Assembly (NCBI GenBank): GCA_938034415.1
Contig: CALHLE010000040.1
Location: 1 to 64,000, forward strand
From: an uncultured Anaerolineae bacterium
GTDB taxonomy: Bacteria > Chloroflexota > Anaerolineae > J036 > Brachytrichaceae
Reading direction: 5' to 3'
Length of the DNA: 64,000 nucleotides
Shown here: piece by piece, positions 34,001 through 41,779 of the stretch
Position numbering within the stretch: position 1 is the first letter of the stretch
Layout of the letters: the number at the start of each line of letters is the position of its first letter
Made by a program: the position numbers and the translations under genes
The notes under the pieces: model-generated
Databases searched by the model: none
What the model was told of the DNA's origin: nothing
What the model saw: the letters and a program-made list of their open reading frames with translations, nothing else

Positions 34001-35776
34001 TTTGAGTTCTTCGTTGGAGAGCACCGGGCTGTTCAACCGGACGAGGTGAGCTAGCTCTTCGGTCTCGGCCAGCAGGTTGCCGCGCCGGCCCAGCAGCACG
34101 CGCAGGCTCATCACCTGGTCTTCGCGCAGGTGATCAATGGGCGGGTTGGTCACCTCGGCGAAGCGCTGCTTGAAGTAGTTGAAGAGCGGGCGCGGCTTGG
34201 GTGAGAGCACGGCATGCGGCGTGTCGTCGCCCATCGAGCCGACCGGCTCGGTGCCGTCCTCGAACATGGTCTTGATCACCAACGTTAGCTCTTCGCTAGT
34301 CCAACCGAACTGCGCCTGTTTGACGAGCAGCGCCTCGGAGTTGACCGCCGGCTGTTCGATGACGATCTGCGCCACTTCCTCCAGGCGCACGCGTTGGCGC
34401 GAAGCCCATTCGCGATAGGGTTTGCGCGAGGCAAGCTCTTTGAGGATTTCGTCGTTGGTGAACAACCGGCGCGCGCGCAAATCGGCGCAGATCATCTGGC
34501 CGGGGCCAAGTTTGCCGTTGACGAGGATGCGCTCCGGCTCCACATCCAGCGCGCCGATCTCGCTGCCGGCATAGACCAACCCGTCCTTGGTCTGCAAGTA
34601 GCGCGCTGGGCGCAGGCCGTTCCGATCGAGCGCCAAACCGATCAGCGTCCCATCGCTGAAGACGATGGAGGCCGGGCCATCCCACGGCTCCATGAGCGCA
34701 GCGTGATAGCGGAAGAAGCCCTTCACCGCCGGCGAGAGGTCGGGATCCTTCTCCCACGCTTGCGGAATGCACATCTTGACCGCGTGGCGAATGTCCCGCC
34801 CGCCCAGGGTGAGCAACTCGATCACGTTATCCAGCCGGCCGGTGTCGCTGCTGGTCACATCCACGATCGGCTTGAGGTGCTCGATCTCGCTGCCCCAGAT
34901 CGGCGAGTTCAGCTCCGGCTCGCGCGCGCGCATCCAGTTCTGATTGCCTTCCACCGTGTTGATCTCGCCGTTGTGACACAGGAAGCGGAACGGCTGCGCC
35001 TTCTCCCAACTCGGAAAGGTGTTGGTGGAATAGCGTTGGTGGAAGATCACATGCGAGACCTTGAAGTCGGGATCGTTCAGGTCAATGTAGAAGCGGCGCA
35101 GTTGGGTGGCCGACACGAGCGCTTTGTATACCAACGTCTGGCACGAGAACGAACAGATGTAGAACCCCTCGATGCCGGCGGCTTTGACGGCGTTTTCGAT
35201 GCGGCGCCGCACCAGGTAAAGCTGCTGATCGAACTCGAGTTCGGTGCGGAAGCCATAGGGACGCTCAACGATGACTTGTTGGATGTCGGGCAGCATCTCT
35301 AACGCGCGCTTGCCCAACACATTGGGTTCGTGCATCACGGTGCGCCACATCAGCACGCGCAGCTCGCGCCGCTCCAACTCCGCCGCGATGATCTCTCGAG
35401 CGCGTGCGTTGGCGCTCGCGTCGCGTGGCAGAAACATCATGCCCACGGCCACGTCGCCGGGGCGATGCGCCTGTTGGCCGACGCGCTCCAGCTCGCGATT
35501 GATCAGCGTGCTGGGGATTGAGCACAGCACGCCGGCGCCGTCGCCGCTCTTGCCGTCGGCATCCAGCGCGCCGCGATGCGCCAGGCGCTCCAGGCACTTC
35601 AACCCGTCATCGAGGATCCTGTGGGTGGGGCGGCCGGAGAGGTCGGCCAGGAAGCCGATGCCGCATGCGTCATGCTCGAAGCGCGCATCGTAAAGCGGCG
35701 CAGATGATCCCTCACGGTCGCCTCCCATCGCGTATGGGCGCCTACACGGCGTACACTGATCACCCTGATTGTCCAT
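31028..35776 (-). CDS. gltB: Glutamate synthase, large (alpha) subunit
   Basis: ATG 35776 follows AAGGGA by about 8 nt. It gives a 37-residue propeptide before Cys38 in HDACGIGF, the glutaminase nucleophile exposed on processing. The open frame to 35848 would run through an intrinsic terminator and is rejected. The 1582-residue product shows the class II amidotransferase domain (about 38-420), the central domain, the FMN barrel with PGEGGQIPGHKV, and the [3Fe-4S] cysteines in CIMARVCHLNTCPTG. The C-terminal glxB-like beta-helix is also present. It converts glutamine plus 2-oxoglutarate to two glutamates. No gltD is present in the window, so the electron donor may be ferredoxin or a distant small subunit. 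Confidence 0.93.
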   Translation of the reverse strand: MDNQGDQCTPCRRPYAMGGDREGSSAPLYDARFEHDACGIGFLADLSGRPTHRILDDGLKCLERLAHRGALDADGKSGDGAGVLCSIPSTLINRELERVGQQAHRPGDVAVGMMFLPRDASANARAREIIAAELERRELRVLMWRTVMHEPNVLGKRALEMLPDIQQVIVERPYGFRTELEFDQQLYLVRRRIENAVKAAGIEGFYICSFSCQTLVYKALVSATQLRRFYIDLNDPDFKVSHVIFHQRYSTNTFPSWEKAQPFRFLCHNGEINTVEGNQNWMRAREPELNSPIWGSEIEHLKPIVDVTSSDTGRLDNVIELLTLGGRDIRHAVKMCIPQAWEKDPDLSPAVKGFFRYHAALMEPWDGPASIVFSDGTLIGLALDRNGLRPARYLQTKDGLVYAGSEIGALDVEPERILVNGKLGPGQMICADLRARRLFTNDEILKELASRKPYREWASRQRVRLEEVAQIVIEQPAVNSEALLVKQAQFGWTSEELTLVIKTMFEDGTEPVGSMGDDTPHAVLSPKPRPLFNYFKQRFAEVTNPPIDHLREDQVMSLRVLLGRRGNLLAETEELAHLVRLNSPVLSNEELKALQNLDDPAFRSVVLDATFPVPTAGERRWDFNANGEEACSLERAVRRLCDDAERAVQFGASILILSDKKAGPHRAVIPALLAVGAVHHHLTRRGLRSRASLVVESGEAREVHHFAVLLGYGASAINPYLALDTAREAVQRGRVRDKSLSESEVVKRYIKAVEKGILKVMSKMGIASVDAYTGAQIFEAVGLAPKLIEECFTGTPSRIGGICYAEIEQTVLQWHANAYRRAEDETAAVSAESESSASHSQLKLDHPGFYKERAGGEPHGYSQKAVHALQKAVRLGNIFDYTGETELVTGIARTKVKTFALNGNFQQGYALYKEFASLFEPNGQPIEPRDLMAICSDRAPIPIDEVEPLGSILARFSTAAMSLGALSPEAHETLAIAMTRLGGLSNSGEGGEEARRFTEESNSGIKQVASGRFGVTPAYLLSATELQIKMAQGSKPGEGGQIPGHKVTDLIARVRHTVPGVALISPPPHHDIYSIEDLAQLIYDLKQINPDAKVSVKLVAQAGVGTIAAGVVKAMADIVLISGHSGGTGASPLSSIKNAGMPWEIGLAETQQTLLENNLRSRVRLRADGGMRTGRDVIIAALLGADEYSFGTAALIAEGCIMARVCHLNTCPTGVATQKPELRLKFEGKPEHVMAYLLYVAQDVRERLAQMGYRSLDEIIGRSDLIAKRSPSPDEAPPVRHREEMLTLRSLSVAPPKDRSLRHSERAPQYPRNVLNEMIVQDARTAIDHQWPIKLHYTIRNQDRSIGARLSGEITKKYYDGGLPPGTIEISFRGYAGQSFGAFTTNGMRLHLVGAANDYVGKGMRGGEISIRPFPEVTYVWADNHILGNTALYGATGGALFAAGRAGERFAVRNSGACGVVEGVGEHACEYMTGGVVVVLGTTGRNFAAGMTGGMAFVYDPDGTFVNRCNTELVDVDRLTHPGMKKLVKSLLRRHYELTNSPRARELLTNWEEASLSFRRVLPKDRVAEIEAINEFSDFQQT

Positions 35777-35798
35777 CCTAGTTCCCTTTTGAGATAAC

Positions 35799-35823
35799 AA
35801 AAAGAGCGACGTTTGCGCCGCTC
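35799..35823 (-). terminator. Intrinsic terminator inside the gltB leader
   Basis: Read on the minus strand, GAGCGGCG-CAAA-CGTCGCTC followed by TTTTT. The gltB ATG starts 23 nt further on, so transcripts must read past it to express gltB. Confidence 0.7.
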
Positions 35824-35847
35824 CTTTGCCCGTGTCACGCATGGACA

Positions 35848-35994
35848 CTATGCGATGAAGTCTGCTGCGCTACGGTTCGGCCATGTCCCGATGAGCCAAA
35901 CCGCGGACGACGCACACAAGTCGCGAATATGCGAAACAGCCGTCACCCGCATCGTGGGAGCGACGGCCATGATGAACCGCTTCGTGGCGTTCAT
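35848..35994 (-). CDS. Possible leader peptide upstream of gltB
   Basis: A 48-codon frame starts with ATG 35994, about 13 nt after the predicted transcription start, and stops at TAG 35848-35850, before the leader terminator. A second in-frame ATG (MAVAPTMRV...) occurs at codon 9. It contains HIRDLCASSAVWL. There is no Shine-Dalgarno and no run of Glu or Gln codons, so ribosome stalling by glutamate/glutamine starvation is not obvious. It may be a chance frame within a structured RNA. Confidence 0.25.
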   Translation of the reverse strand: MNATKRFIMAVAPTMRVTAVSHIRDLCASSAVWLIGTWPNRSAADFIA

Positions 35995-36013
35995 ACACTA
36001 AGTGTTTTGCAAA

Positions 36014-36041
36014 AGCATACGCGATAACCCTGCGTTGTCAA
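36014..36041 (-). promoter_or_regulatory. gltB promoter, TTGACA-16-TATGCT
   Basis: On the minus strand a perfect -35 TTGACA (36041-36036) is followed after 16 nt by TATGCT (36019-36014). Transcription would start near 36007. It is the only full -35 consensus with a fitting -10 found in this window. Confidence 0.6.
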
Positions 36042-36192: not shown

Positions 36193-39100
36193 TCATGGCT
36201 TCGCCGCAATCGGCAGGTAAATGCGCAGTGCCTCTACATCCACAACGCTGCTCAACACGATGCCCGTGTCCACGTTGTCCACGAACACCTTCGGCTCGTT
36301 GGTGATCCGCCCCTCCAAAATCTGCGCCTGCACGGCGTAGATCAGCACGTGCGATTCGCCCGGCGCGAGGCTGCCGCTCCACACCACGCCGGCCAGCGTC
36401 GCCAGCGGGCCGAGGGCGAGGCTGCCAAAGTAGCTACCGCCGGTGGCGCTGCCCGCCACGTAGGTCGTGCCAGACGGGATCGGCGCATACAACAGGATGT
36501 TGTTCACCACGCCGCTGCCGTTGTTGGTGAGCACCACCGTGTAGGTGATGATGTCGCCTTTGCGCACGACGCCCAGCGTGTTGGTGACGGTGGTGAGGTT
36601 GCCGCCCAGGCCGGTGTCCGGCGCAGGCGGTTGGACGTAGGTCACCATCGCGCCGCCGCTCAAGCTGCCCGCCGTCCCATACACCATCTCAGAACCTGGA
36701 ACCGTTGAGGTCAGCGTGACGGTCACTCGTCCGGTGGCGTCCGTCGTCCCGCTGTTTGGGCTGAAGTTGCCGATGCCGGCCAAGAACAGCACCGGCACGC
36801 CGGGCACCGGGTTGCCGAACGCATCGGTGACCTGCGCCACCACCACGCTCTGGCTGATGCCGTTCGCCAGGATGAGGTTCGGCGTGGCGGTGAGCGCGAG
36901 GCTCGCCGGCGCGCCTACGGTGAACGTCACCAGCGCCGTGGCGTCCACGCCGACAGCGGTCGCCGTCACCAACGCCGTCCCCGCAAGCGTGGAGCTGACC
37001 GTAGCGGTTGCGACGCCGCCAAGCGTGGTCGCTGTCGCGGGCGCAACGCTGCCCAGCGAGGTGGCGAAGCTCACCGCTGTACCGTCCGGCACCGGCGCGC
37101 CGCTCAGGTCGGTGACCGTCGCCGTCAGCAGCGCCGACGTGCCGACGGGGGTCGTGCTGGGGTCAGTCGTGAGCGCGACGCTCACGTTGGCGTTCACCTG
37201 CAAGCGCACCAGGCCAAAATCGGTCTGATCGCCGTCGCCAGCAGTGACCGAGATCACCACCGTGTCGCTCACGCCGATAGTCGGCGTGAAGACGAGCGTC
37301 GCCAGCGAGGCGTTCACGTCGGTGATCGTGCCGCTGATGGCGTAGCTGCCCAGCGCCGGCGCAAAGCTGCCGGTTGCGCCGCCCACCAGGCTGAGGCCCA
37401 ACATCCCCTGCGCTGCATCCGCAAGCTGGAGCGTGACGCTGATCACATCAGCCAGATCGGGGTCGAGCACCTGGAGGTCGTGCAAGGGGAAGCCGCCCGC
37501 GCCGACATGCCGCTGCGTGAAGATGTGCTGGCCGACCGGCACGCGCGCGATGGTCAACGTGCCGCTCACCTCATTGGCCGCCAGCACGTACAGCGCGTCG
37601 TTGCGCTCAGCCAGCTTCACGCCCTCCGGCGCGGCGCCGGTGGGGATCAGGCCGAAAACCACCGGCTCGGTGACCACCGTCATGTCCACCAAGGCGACCG
37701 CATTGGCGCGCTCCAGGCCGACGGCGACGATTGCGCGGCCCTCGAAGATCGCGGCATCGAGCACCTCCGGCTCGCTGCCGCCGCGATTGCTGCGAGTGTC
37801 CGGGTAGCGCCCCCAGCGGGCTGCCGTGTCATCCAACTGGCCGGCGGTGTCCGCGACCAGCGCGCCGTTGTCAGAGCGGAAGATGCTCACCGTGCGGCCG
37901 CCGCGCACGCCGGCGCTGCTGGGGCTGGGGCGCGTGTCGCCCTCATCCGCCGTGACGAAGTAGGATGTGCCGCCAACCTCGATGACGGCGATGCCGTCTG
38001 GCTCGCGCCACGCCGTCAGCACCTCCACCGGCTGGTAACCGCCGCCGTTGGTGAGATCGGCCTGATGGGTTGTGGAATACAGGCCAAAGAACGTGAGCGT
38101 GTAGGGCGGCGTCAGCTCCACGCGTACCACGCCGTTGTTCTCCTGCAAGCTGACGTAGGCGAATTGGGAGTTGGCGGAGAAGGCGATGCTCTCCGGCTCC
38201 AGCGTGTTCGGCGCGTTGTCAATCAGCAAGCGCCCGACGTCATCGTAGCGCCCCGCGCTAAAGCCGGGCGTGCTCGCCTGCGAGGGGAGCGAGAGGGTAA
38301 TCACGTTCAGCGGCGTTGGGGCGTCGGGGTCGAAGCTGCTGAGGTCCACAATGGAGAGCGAGCCGGGGCCGCCGTTATCACCCGTTCCTGGCGCCTCGGC
38401 CTCGTTAGCGACCACCGCGAAGTTTCCGTCCGGCGAGATAGCGATGGCGTCGGGCTGGATGCCCACCAGCGCCTCGGTGATGTAGGCGCCGCTGCTCAGG
38501 CGATAGGCGATCACCTTGCCGTGCACCGGTGATGCCGCAGGCGCCGCGCCGCCTGCCACGGCGAGGATCAAGTCCTTGGTGGGGTGGATCGCCAGCGAAT
38601 TCAGCCCGCTCAGCACGGCGGTTGGGCCGACGCGGCCTACCAGCGTGGGCGAGAGGATGTCGCTCAGGTCGAGGCGGTCAAAGCTCTTGTCGCCCGCATT
38701 GGTCAGCGCGCCCCAGTCGCCGCGGACGGCGATGATCTCCGCGCCGTTGTTGCCCAGGCCGGTGTCGTAGGTGGCGATGGCGGTGAGCTTCGGTGCGACG
38801 TTAAGCAGCAAGTCCACCAGCAGTAAGTCGTGGTCAGACGAGCGGTAAGCGTCGGGGGCGTAGAAGTAACTCTGCTGAGCAGGCGACTTGAACTCGGTGT
38901 TGTAGTCGAGCACGACCGGCTCATCGGCGTTGACGTGCCATTCGTGTGCGCCGATGATCTGCGCGTCCAGCGTTGGCGAAGCCAGCGCGTGATCCAGCGC
39001 GCCCCACTGGCCGCGGAACGAATAGGAGTAGAACTGCTCCCCCATGCGCGACTCGGTCACATGGACGTAGCCGGCGTCCTTCAAGGCGCGGATCGGATCT

Positions 39101-41613
39101 TCCTGCAGATAAGAGTTCAGGTCGCCGATGATGAGGATGTCGGGGTCGGCGATGCCGGTAGGATCTGTGGCCAACCAAGCGGCCAGCTCCTGAGCGGCGA
39201 CCGTGCGCGTGCGATTGCAGTTGCCCTGGCCGTCGTTGGCGTCGTCGTCGTTTGGCGCGGGGCTGCTAGTACCGTTGTTGGCGCAGGAGCTGCCCTTGGA
39301 CTTCAGGTGATTGACCACCACGGTAAAGCGCTCGCCGCTGATGCGCTCCTCGAAGCTCTGCGCCAACGGCGGACGGTTACGCTGAATGGTCGTGGTGTCG
39401 GTGAGGACAAACAATCCGAACGCGCCGGTGGTGAGCACGGCGGTCGCGCCCACCGGCTTTACCTTCTCCGGCTTGTAGATGAGGCCCACCTTGATCGCGT
39501 CCGTGCCCAGCGCATTGGTGGCGCCGGTGTTTGCGTCTGCGTCTATGAAGGCGAACGTACCGGGCGCGGTCGCCGCGTTCAGGCGATCCACCAAGTCCTG
39601 GATGGCGCTGTTGGCGCGATAGCCGTCGTTCTCCAGCTCTTGCACCGCGATGATGTCGGCGCGCGAACCCAGCAGGGCAGCGACGGTCTTAGAGATTTGG
39701 CGCTGGAACTCGGCCGCGTTACTCGCGCCACGGCAGTCCGTCGGCGCGCCGCCCACGCCGTTGGTGCAGTTGCCCGCGCCGAAGGTGTTGAAGTAGTTGA
39801 GCAGGTTCGCGTTGGCGACGCGCAGCGCTCCCGCCCGTGGCACGGGCGCAGGGCGGGGGTTGGCGGCGACAAAAGTGACCGGCTCGGTCGGCCGCACGCG
39901 ATAGGCGTTTGGGCTGGCCGACGCGCCGCCCCAGCCGTAGGTCAGCACACCCACCACGTTGCTCACCGTGTCGCCGCCGCGCAGCGTGTTGGCCGCAGTG
40001 AGGGTGAGGCCGTTGCGCGCGAAGATGACCGGATCGGGGTTCTGCTGGTTAGTCGCGTCGTCCAGGATGATGGTGTTGAGCGCATTCTGCGCTTGGAGCG
40101 CGAGCGCAGGCGCGCCGGGCGTGATCACCTGCGTCGGCTGCCATAGGCGTCCACCGAACGCAAGGCTCACCTGGCCGAAGCGGCCCAGGTAATAGTTGTC
40201 CGTCACCACAAGCTCCTGCGGTAAGCGCACGCGCATGCCCTCGAATCGCTCCAAATCGTCCGCCGAGGTCAGCGGCAGGGTGATGTACACCGGCGTAGGC
40301 AGCGACGCGCTGCCGCAGTCCACGATGGGCTGCGAGAGGGTGCGGGTGATTTGCGTCTGCCCGAAGAACTCGCCCACCGTGCCGGTCAGCACGACGCGCT
40401 GCCCGATGGAGACATCATTGTTGTTGTGGTTGAAGACAAACACGCCGTCGGAGGTGGACGGGTCGCCGTCACCGACCTCCTCCTGCAGATAAAAGCCGCG
40501 CAGCGCCGGCGCGGGGCCTTCAAAGTCGCCGACGACCACGCCGCGCACCGTCACTACGTCGCCGACGAGGGGGGAGGTGGCCCCGTTGCCCTGGATGGTA
40601 TAGATTGGCGTGAACACCCCGCTCGCGCAAATCGCCGGCGGACCGGATGAGACGGTGGTGAACGACGAGACGAAGTCCGCCGCCATGTTGTCCGGCGGGT
40701 CGTTGGTGTCTTGGTCGGCGACCTGCGCGGCATACACGGTGAGCGTGCAAGTCTCGCCGGGATCGAAGTCCGTGTTCGGGTCCAACGTAAAGACCGTCGG
40801 CCCGCCGGTCACTGTGGTGTTGCTAGGGTCGCGCGCGCCGCTTGACGGGCAGGTGATCTGAAACCATGTGCCGCTGACGTTGACCGGCTCGCTGAAGGTG
40901 ATCACGACGTTGCTATCCAGCGGCACGTTGGTTGCGCTGTTTGGCGGCGACACTGCGCTCACGCTCGGCGCGAGGTCGCCCGATAGCGTGCCGTAGATGG
41001 TCACGTTGTCGAAGCGCACCGTGCCGCTCGCTCTATACGATGAGTTTGGACTGGCCGCGTAGTACTGACTCGTGGTTGGGCTGAACGCCGTGACCACCCG
41101 GATGCGCAAGTCGGGCACGGAGACGCTGTAGCTGCTCAGGTCTACCGTCGGCGTCACCCAGATGTCGCCTTGAAAGACGGTGTCGGTGTAAACATCGGTA
41201 AAGCTCGCGCCGCCGTCGGTGGAGAACTGCACCACCACCGTGTTGGCGGCTGTGTTGCTGCGGCGCACGGCGAAGGACATGGTGATGTTGGTGTAGCTGG
41301 AGGCGTCCACCTGAAACTGCGCGCCGGCCGTCTTGTTGCCGCTGCCCTGCGCTGGGTAATTAGTGGTGTTCCAGCCGCCGTTTGATTCGCCGCCCACCCC
41401 TGTGGCAAAGCTGGCGGTCGTCCCGCCCACCAGCGAGGCGGTACCGCTGCCGACCGCAGGTGTGATTGTGCCGCCGTCGAACGTCCATTGGGTGATGATC
41501 GACGAAGCGTGGACAACGCGCGGCGCGCTGCTCGTCCATGAGAAAACTAGCGAGGAGAGGAGCATTACTCCGCTCATGAAGAGACGGAATGTTTGCCTGA
41601 GCAATTGTTGCAT
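36193..41613 (-). CDS. Very large secreted ExeM/NucH-type nuclease with choice-of-anchor propeller and Ig-like domains
   Basis: ATG 41613 (MQQLLRQTFRLFMSGVMLL) begins the signal peptide; the frame to 41646 starts at a TTG. The product has 1806 residues. In order it contains a carbohydrate-binding-like beta domain (about 40-215), an Ig-like Big_5 domain (SAVSPPNSATNVPLDSNV), and an OB-fold as in ExeM nucleases (GDVVTVRGVVVGDFEG). An endonuclease/exonuclease/phosphatase domain follows (IIAVQELEN, VVNHLKSKG, IIGDLNSYLQEDP, SSDHDLLLVDL). A choice-of-anchor-I propeller (YDTGLGNNGAEIIAV, TADEGDTRPS), two invasin-like Ig domains, a DUF11 domain and the terminal RIYLPIAAKP complete it. It probably degrades extracellular DNA at or near the cell surface. 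Confidence 0.8.
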   Translation of the reverse strand: MQQLLRQTFRLFMSGVMLLSSLVFSWTSSAPRVVHASSIITQWTFDGGTITPAVGSGTASLVGGTTASFATGVGGESNGGWNTTNYPAQGSGNKTAGAQFQVDASSYTNITMSFAVRRSNTAANTVVVQFSTDGGASFTDVYTDTVFQGDIWVTPTVDLSSYSVSVPDLRIRVVTAFSPTTSQYYAASPNSSYRASGTVRFDNVTIYGTLSGDLAPSVSAVSPPNSATNVPLDSNVVITFSEPVNVSGTWFQITCPSSGARDPSNTTVTGGPTVFTLDPNTDFDPGETCTLTVYAAQVADQDTNDPPDNMAADFVSSFTTVSSGPPAICASGVFTPIYTIQGNGATSPLVGDVVTVRGVVVGDFEGPAPALRGFYLQEEVGDGDPSTSDGVFVFNHNNNDVSIGQRVVLTGTVGEFFGQTQITRTLSQPIVDCGSASLPTPVYITLPLTSADDLERFEGMRVRLPQELVVTDNYYLGRFGQVSLAFGGRLWQPTQVITPGAPALALQAQNALNTIILDDATNQQNPDPVIFARNGLTLTAANTLRGGDTVSNVVGVLTYGWGGASASPNAYRVRPTEPVTFVAANPRPAPVPRAGALRVANANLLNYFNTFGAGNCTNGVGGAPTDCRGASNAAEFQRQISKTVAALLGSRADIIAVQELENDGYRANSAIQDLVDRLNAATAPGTFAFIDADANTGATNALGTDAIKVGLIYKPEKVKPVGATAVLTTGAFGLFVLTDTTTIQRNRPPLAQSFEERISGERFTVVVNHLKSKGSSCANNGTSSPAPNDDDANDGQGNCNRTRTVAAQELAAWLATDPTGIADPDILIIGDLNSYLQEDPIRALKDAGYVHVTESRMGEQFYSYSFRGQWGALDHALASPTLDAQIIGAHEWHVNADEPVVLDYNTEFKSPAQQSYFYAPDAYRSSDHDLLLVDLLLNVAPKLTAIATYDTGLGNNGAEIIAVRGDWGALTNAGDKSFDRLDLSDILSPTLVGRVGPTAVLSGLNSLAIHPTKDLILAVAGGAAPAASPVHGKVIAYRLSSGAYITEALVGIQPDAIAISPDGNFAVVANEAEAPGTGDNGGPGSLSIVDLSSFDPDAPTPLNVITLSLPSQASTPGFSAGRYDDVGRLLIDNAPNTLEPESIAFSANSQFAYVSLQENNGVVRVELTPPYTLTFFGLYSTTHQADLTNGGGYQPVEVLTAWREPDGIAVIEVGGTSYFVTADEGDTRPSPSSAGVRGGRTVSIFRSDNGALVADTAGQLDDTAARWGRYPDTRSNRGGSEPEVLDAAIFEGRAIVAVGLERANAVALVDMTVVTEPVVFGLIPTGAAPEGVKLAERNDALYVLAANEVSGTLTIARVPVGQHIFTQRHVGAGGFPLHDLQVLDPDLADVISVTLQLADAAQGMLGLSLVGGATGSFAPALGSYAISGTITDVNASLATLVFTPTIGVSDTVVISVTAGDGDQTDFGLVRLQVNANVSVALTTDPSTTPVGTSALLTATVTDLSGAPVPDGTAVSFATSLGSVAPATATTLGGVATATVSSTLAGTALVTATAVGVDATALVTFTVGAPASLALTATPNLILANGISQSVVVAQVTDAFGNPVPGVPVLFLAGIGNFSPNSGTTDATGRVTVTLTSTVPGSEMVYGTAGSLSGGAMVTYVQPPAPDTGLGGNLTTVTNTLGVVRKGDIITYTVVLTNNGSGVVNNILLYAPIPSGTTYVAGSATGGSYFGSLALGPLATLAGVVWSGSLAPGESHVLIYAVQAQILEGRITNEPKVFVDNVDTGIVLSSVVDVEALRIYLPIAAKP

Positions 41614-41779
41614 AGCGAAAGACCTCGTTAACCGAATAAAGTCCAACCCTGCTATCTAAGCGACTTTTGTTAAGCGAGCTTTAGCCTCACTTCAAGTTCT
41701 CATAAAGCGCTGTGGGGTGGGGATTTGTATCCGTGTGGCACAATGCCCCGTAGCGCACAGGCAGCATGAAGGAGAAGGA

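Follow-up and report, generated by a model that had tools for sequence, protein, structure and literature searches.

The analysed window, a stretch of 64,000 nucleotides, comes from a draft genome; among named organisms, its closest relatives are Candidatus Roseilinea (Thermoflexales, Anaerolineae, Chloroflexota). It contains the gltB gene, which encodes the large subunit of glutamate synthase and whose start codon occupies positions 35776-35774 on the minus strand (Table 1). The promoter found upstream of gltB matches the consensus at 10 of 12 positions, and it is the sole such site between positions 35300 and 36400, where 0.3 sites are expected (consensus scan). Promoter and gene are separated by a structured leader of about 230 nt on the minus strand. 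The leader holds five hairpins, H1, H2, H3, H4 and an intrinsic terminator, the U run of which ends 22 nt before the start codon. Its folding is stronger than that of all 200 dinucleotide-shuffled versions (z = -3.3). The upstream neighbour of gltB (36193-41646, minus strand) is an open frame of 1817 aa with a signal-like start and Ig-like repeats; judged by eye only, it apparently encodes a secreted nuclease-like protein.

Table 1. Features of the gltB locus and the basis of their assignment
Feature	Position	Strand	Basis
Promoter TTGACA-16-TATGCT, sigma-70-like	36014..36041 (36041-36014)	-	consensus scan
CTTAGTG box near the presumed transcript 5' end	35996..36002	-	invariant in the genus; also in G007, G017 and G011
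H1, UGAACGC[CACGAA]GC-g-GUUCA, proposed ANTAR docking site	35973..35993 (35993-35973)	-	alignment, covariation, enrichment
H2, long hairpin	35938..35968	-	11/11 pairs kept in 8 genomes
Conserved UUUCGCAUAUU after H2	35926..35936	-	genus alignment
H3, hairpin GGUUUGGC...GCCGAACC	35874..35902	-	90.6% of cells paired; loop not conserved
H4, GUGUC-[NAYGNN]U-GACAC, directly before the terminator	35832..35848	-	all pairs kept in 8 genomes
Intrinsic terminator AAAGGAGCGGCG-CAAA-CGUCGCUCUUUUU	35799..35827 (35827-35799)	-	scan, fold, genus alignment
gltB, glutamate synthase large subunit, 1582 aa	31028..35776	-	NF008730, 1748 bits

Conservation and structure of the gltB leader

In all nine genomes of the genus, gltB is located behind this promoter. 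Leader and promoter together show 77-87% identity over nearly their full length in eight of these genomes; in the ninth, the strongly diverged G007, the leader is conserved in part. The promoter TTGACA...ATCGCGTATGCTT is retained in all nine and also in G017 and G022, which belong to another genus. Conservation starts with CTCTTGACA and falls off upstream of it. Within the leader, H1 is the most conserved element and is near-invariant in the genus alignment. The first-pass annotation had described the promoter, the leader of about 230 nt ending in a terminator close to gltB, and two further hairpins corresponding to H2 and H3. All of these are present, the promoter is conserved in the genus, and both hairpins are conserved in the gltB upstream regions of relatives (Table 1). 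The annotation had missed H1 and also H4. Across the eight genomes H2 shows one double change and several single ones; the covariation signal of the whole leader structure within the genus alone is modest to weak. At the level of sequence comparison, the gltB leader is confirmed as a real, conserved leader with a predicted cis-regulatory function in transcription attenuation.

The 5' arm of H2, CGUCGCUC (35965-35958), is an exact copy of the 3' arm of the terminator and is thus also able to base-pair with its 5' arm. The complementarity lies above that of shuffled sequences in the genome of the window, G000 (p 0.015), and in G007 (0.002), G013 (0.039) and G021 (0.046), and does not exceed it in G004, G005 and the genera g5 and g7. 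A long-range antiterminator formed by the two arms was rejected as a general feature and is considered here solely as one possible element of the mechanism.

In genome G013 a truncated copy of the gltB terminator and of the first codons of the gene is fused to the 3' end of a large gene (G013:C9:207146-207207). This large gene is the same as the upstream neighbour of gltB in the window, and the arrangement appears to be a rearranged remnant.

Hexaloop hairpins in the gltB, glnA and amtB leaders

The gltB leaders of 28 genomes from eight genera of the family were gathered. In many of them gltB is preceded by a promoter and a long leader with a terminator near the gene; apart from a hairpin whose six-base loop is closed by a C:G pair, their sequences share little. 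In H1 this hexaloop reads CACGAA. The same loop is carried by the stems GAACGC/GC-GUUC in the genus of the window (g1), CCGC/GCGG in G017 and CGUC/GACG in G016. The loop CAUGAU is found on the stems GCAUC/GAUGC (G021, G009) and CGC/GCG (G018), and the loops CACGCA (G023) and CGCGAA (G019) are found in genus g7. The C:G closing pair is present in all nine rows compared across genera, and the G at loop position 4 (G4) is invariant in H1 of nine gltB leaders. Both stay in place between genera while the stem has changed on both sides in five of six pairs, a count that leans towards pairing because the sequences had been selected as hairpins and, in some, a single bulged base had been deleted.

A fairer test than the stem-pair count is a scan for hairpins of the class C[YNNGAN]G with at least three pairs, one bulge or mismatch being allowed. 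Of 14 gltB leaders of the family, 13 contain such a hairpin, where 1.2 are expected from shuffled sequences, and none of 500 shuffles reaches 13; this figure is not a clean probability, since the leaders are related and the loop class, read mainly from glnA and amtB, had partly been seen in gltB beforehand. The background of the class in the window is 0.17 hairpins per 200 nt. Three gltB leaders of genus g8, outside these 14, also carry a hairpin of the class. No intact hexaloop was found in the gltB leader of G013, and the very short gltB leader of G332 has no C[YNNGAN]G hairpin. Canonical ANTAR loops of the form A..G.. occur in gltB leaders at chance level, in 4 of 14 against 3.7 expected. 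Among 396 genomes of the class, the exact H1 pattern is present once in each of eight genomes of the genus and nowhere else; a looser pattern also recovers the gltB leaders of G007, G017 and G011, together with other sites that look like chance matches. Two of the g8 gltB leaders show no terminator, and their C[YNNGAN]G hairpin covers the ribosome-binding site or lies close to it, suggesting a form of the switch that acts on translation.

The same class of hairpin is located on the leaders of two other nitrogen genes. Across the family, glnA (in the genus, the type of about 500 aa) is directly preceded by a strong terminator with a hexaloop hairpin over it. The genus leader holds GUGUCACCAGGACGUGACGUUCC, identical in six of seven aligned genomes, and its hairpin GUCAC[CAGGAC]GUGAC shares bases with the 5' arm of a terminator of 15 bp. 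The 5' arm of this terminator is almost invariant in the genus, and the 3' arm drifts by G-U changes. The glnA loops found across the family are CAGGAC, CGGGAC, UGGGAC, UGAGAC, CGGGAU, CAGGAU and CAAGAC. G4 is invariant in eleven glnA hairpins, both sides of the stem have changed in three of five pairs, and the covariation score exceeds that of all 500 shuffles. The amtB leaders contain one or two terminators overlapped by hairpins of the hexaloop class. In G010 the amtB hairpin, GC[CACGAA]GC, has the same loop as H1 of gltB, and in genus g7 two hexaloops joined by a short linker, GCAUUC[CACGGU]GAAUGC and GGC[CUGGAA]GCC, precede amtB. Since the hexaloop hairpin is common to the gltB, glnA and amtB leaders, all three genes are probably switched on together by one regulator.

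In the genus, the amtB leaders have two terminators in tandem, each with an overlapping hexaloop hairpin, and a near-invariant UGACCUACCCCGUCGUCGGUC is found about 80 nt before the ATG, which the hexaloop model does not explain.

Near-canonical ANTAR hairpins were also found before gltB in two further families of Anaerolineae that have ANTAR genes; these are single cases outside any statistical test. In G037, CUGGC[ACUGAC]GCCAG is followed by GGC[UACGAC]GCC, which overlaps the terminator, and in G046 the hairpin CGGC[AAAGCC]GCUA overlaps the terminator. In the single-contig genome G033 no ANTAR gene was found, and its gltB has no such leader.

A REC-ANTAR regulator as the candidate reader of the leader

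Exactly one ANTAR gene is present in 26 of the 28 genomes of the family. In the genome of the window it lies at G000:C29:42108-42263 and flanks and encodes a REC-ANTAR response regulator, which matches Rv1626 (7e-44) and EutV (5.5e-36). No ANTAR gene was found in the drafts G009 and G011, which do have hexaloop leaders. The use of G011 as a natural control lacking the regulator was considered and abandoned, its glnA leader being intact and the gene being possibly just missing from the draft. EutW and PdtaS, the partners of such REC-ANTAR regulators, are kinases of the HisKA_2 kind. A HisKA_2 kinase is encoded once in each of the nine genus genomes. The only such gene in the genome of the window, G000:C72:1209-1415, appears by eye to encode two GAF domains in the N-terminal half of the protein. 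Its product is a candidate partner of the regulator.

According to the structure of EutV bound to RNA, the loop G4 is held by Tyr164, Arg142, Lys149 and Glu160, and Met172 plugs the loop; the minimal EutV binding site is a single hexaloop (PMC8934654). In an alignment to EutV, the ANTAR domains of the family keep the four residues that contact G4. At the loop-plug position all 25 family sequences read have A-R-S or A-R-A, so that Arg replaces Met172 of EutV. The middle Met (S-M-N, S-M-D or A-M-D) is found in 10 of 11 ANTAR domains from other families of the class, in EutV and in Rv1626. Against the Pfam ANTAR model the family domains score 57-65 bits, lower than in genomes of the class outside the family, where the top hit of each genome reaches 73-92 bits. 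The occurrence of Arg for Met in a lineage with altered loops indicates that the change of the plug goes with the change of the loop.

Taken together, the gltB leader is, on balance, probably a variant of the ANTAR-target attenuators and part of a regulon with glnA and amtB. We propose that RNA polymerase normally halts at the terminator before gltB. H1, which starts about 15 nt into the transcript, would be the docking site for the single ANTAR response regulator of the genome. Phosphorylation by the HisKA_2 kinase in response to a signal would activate the regulator, and its docking on H1 would promote read-through. The same regulator would act on the glnA and amtB leaders, where the hexaloop hairpins lie over the terminators. 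As these leaders carry the same hexaloop type, the ammonium transporter, glutamine synthetase and glutamate synthase would form one antitermination regulon. In the leader of the window about 145 nt separate H1 from the terminator, whereas EutV requires a short linker (PMC3369931, PMC8934654) and loses antitermination when the linker is longer by 20 nt (PMC8934654). Two candidate ways of covering this distance can be suggested. H2 and H3 may fold compactly, and H4, which lies beside the terminator at about 125 nt from H1 and has a 7-nt loop with A2 and G4 retained in the genus alignment, may serve as a second contact for the regulator. Alternatively, binding to H1 may disturb H2, so that the released 5' arm of H2 pairs with that of the terminator.

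A further-reaching proposal is offered tentatively, as one that may well prove wrong. The ANTAR code of this Thermoflexales family would have been rewired, the plug shifting from S-M-N to A-R-S along with a shift of the loop code from A-N-N-G-N-N to Y-N-N-G-A-N in gltB, glnA and amtB, and in the genus the gltB leader would have acquired long-range control, with a hexaloop at its 5' end governing a terminator far away, possibly through strand exchange. An ANTAR regulon of gltB, glnA and amtB would bring the core of ammonium assimilation in a Chloroflexota family, from uptake through glutamine synthetase to glutamate synthase, under one two-component switch acting at the RNA level. It would also be a natural case of protein-RNA co-evolution: the residue placed within the RNA loop in the structure of EutV is a different one in the lineage whose target loops differ, which makes the ANTAR specificity code testable by a one-residue swap. 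No report of ANTAR control in Chloroflexota was found in the literature searched, the coverage of which was incomplete.

It is unlikely that another RNA-binding protein reads the hexaloops of gltB, glnA and amtB and that the ANTAR regulator has other targets. Such a protein would account for a loop lacking the canonical A1, for a gltB layout that differs from known ANTAR targets and for the two drafts that have these leaders and no ANTAR gene. However, the C:G closing pair, the hexaloop size, G4 and the terminator overlap in glnA and amtB are ANTAR features (PMC7496416), almost every genome of the family has a single ANTAR gene, and in the sister families gltB is preceded by near-canonical ANTAR hairpins.

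The first-pass annotation saw in the leader the layout of a riboswitch or attenuator, possibly one that senses nitrogen status. A conserved attenuator of a nitrogen-assimilation gene it appears to be, but the RNA itself is less likely to be the sensor, since the part kept across genera is a hexaloop hairpin shared with glnA and amtB. As a riboswitch, H1, H2 and UUUCGCAUAUU would form an aptamer for a metabolite such as glutamine or 2-oxoglutarate and would directly set the choice between terminator and antiterminator, which we consider improbable. The strong fold, the near-invariant 5' domain in the genus and the ability of the H2 5' arm to pair with the terminator 5' arm are consistent with it. 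So is a possible pairing of CGAA in the H1 loop with UUCG after H2, for which G013 shows the matching change CAAA/UUUG; this pairing fits the genus and G013 but is absent in g2, g5 and g7, and it is retained only under the riboswitch explanation. Against an aptamer, no larger domain than the hexaloop hairpin is kept outside the genus, the glnA and amtB leaders with the same hexaloop class have another architecture, and there is no Rfam match. A target of the ANTAR regulator is thus the more likely explanation of the gltB leader.

It is very unlikely that the terminator is a constitutive damper, with hairpins that merely stabilise the mRNA and with no regulator involved: the conserved loop of H1 on a covarying stem, the hexaloop class common to glnA and amtB, and the asymmetry of the glnA terminator arms point to a trans-acting reader. 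Attenuation by a leader peptide, in which a short upstream frame (ATG at 35994) is translated and thereby decides between the folds, is extremely unlikely: the frame MNATK[RL]FI opens in H1 in eight genus genomes, but neither start codon nor reading frame is conserved (the ATG is lost in G007 and G017, and the frame breaks early in G002 and G004), no clear ribosome site is seen, and the conserved bases include wobble positions of H1.

Comparison with known regulatory RNAs

The glutamine riboswitch (glnA RNA and Downstream-peptide in Rfam) resembles the present case as a leader of a nitrogen-assimilation gene. It differs in that the conserved unit here is a simple hexaloop hairpin, and that neither the gltB leader nor its vicinity matches it. 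The earlier statement that the glnA riboswitch core is not recognisable agrees with the covariance-model search, which gave no Rfam match for the window at the gathering threshold and, for the leader, nothing noteworthy at E<=10.

Published ANTAR targets contain C:G-closed hexaloops with A1 and G4, and their second hairpin overlaps the terminator (PMC3369931, PMC7496416). Three of their features were looked for in the gltB leader of the genus and not found. Loop position 1 of H1 is C instead of A. One clear hexaloop is present in place of two closely spaced ones (linkers of 5-12 nt in eut and of 2-25 nt in actinobacteria). No conserved hexaloop lies over the 5' arm of the terminator, such an overlap being present in glnA, in amtB and in gltB of G037 and G046. 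The leader is therefore a variant rather than a plain member of the group. In actinobacterial ANTAR targets, A1 and G4 are found in just over half, and versions overlapping the ribosome-binding site exist; these targets are dual hairpins with linkers of 2-25 nt and belong mostly to non-nitrogen genes (PMC8164766), unlike the leaders described here. The variable loop positions are shared with them, as is the overlap with the ribosome-binding site in the two g8 gltB leaders.

Compared with the targets of EutV (Enterococcus faecalis eut), NasR (Klebsiella oxytoca nasF) and AmiR (amiE), the leaders described here have C or U in place of A at loop position 1, commonly with A5, the hexaloop of gltB is placed about 145 nt upstream of the terminator, and the ANTAR loop plug is Arg. 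Most published targets are nitrogen genes, glutamate synthase genes included (PMC3369931), and ANTAR targets have been predicted at the glutamate synthase genes of Desulfotomaculum reducens (PMC3369931, PMC7496416, PMC8934654). With the EutV, NasR and AmiR targets the present leaders have in common their location before nitrogen genes, the C:G-closed hexaloops with G4, the intrinsic terminator in front of the gene, a REC-ANTAR regulator in the genome and, in glnA and amtB, a hexaloop hairpin that overlaps the terminator.
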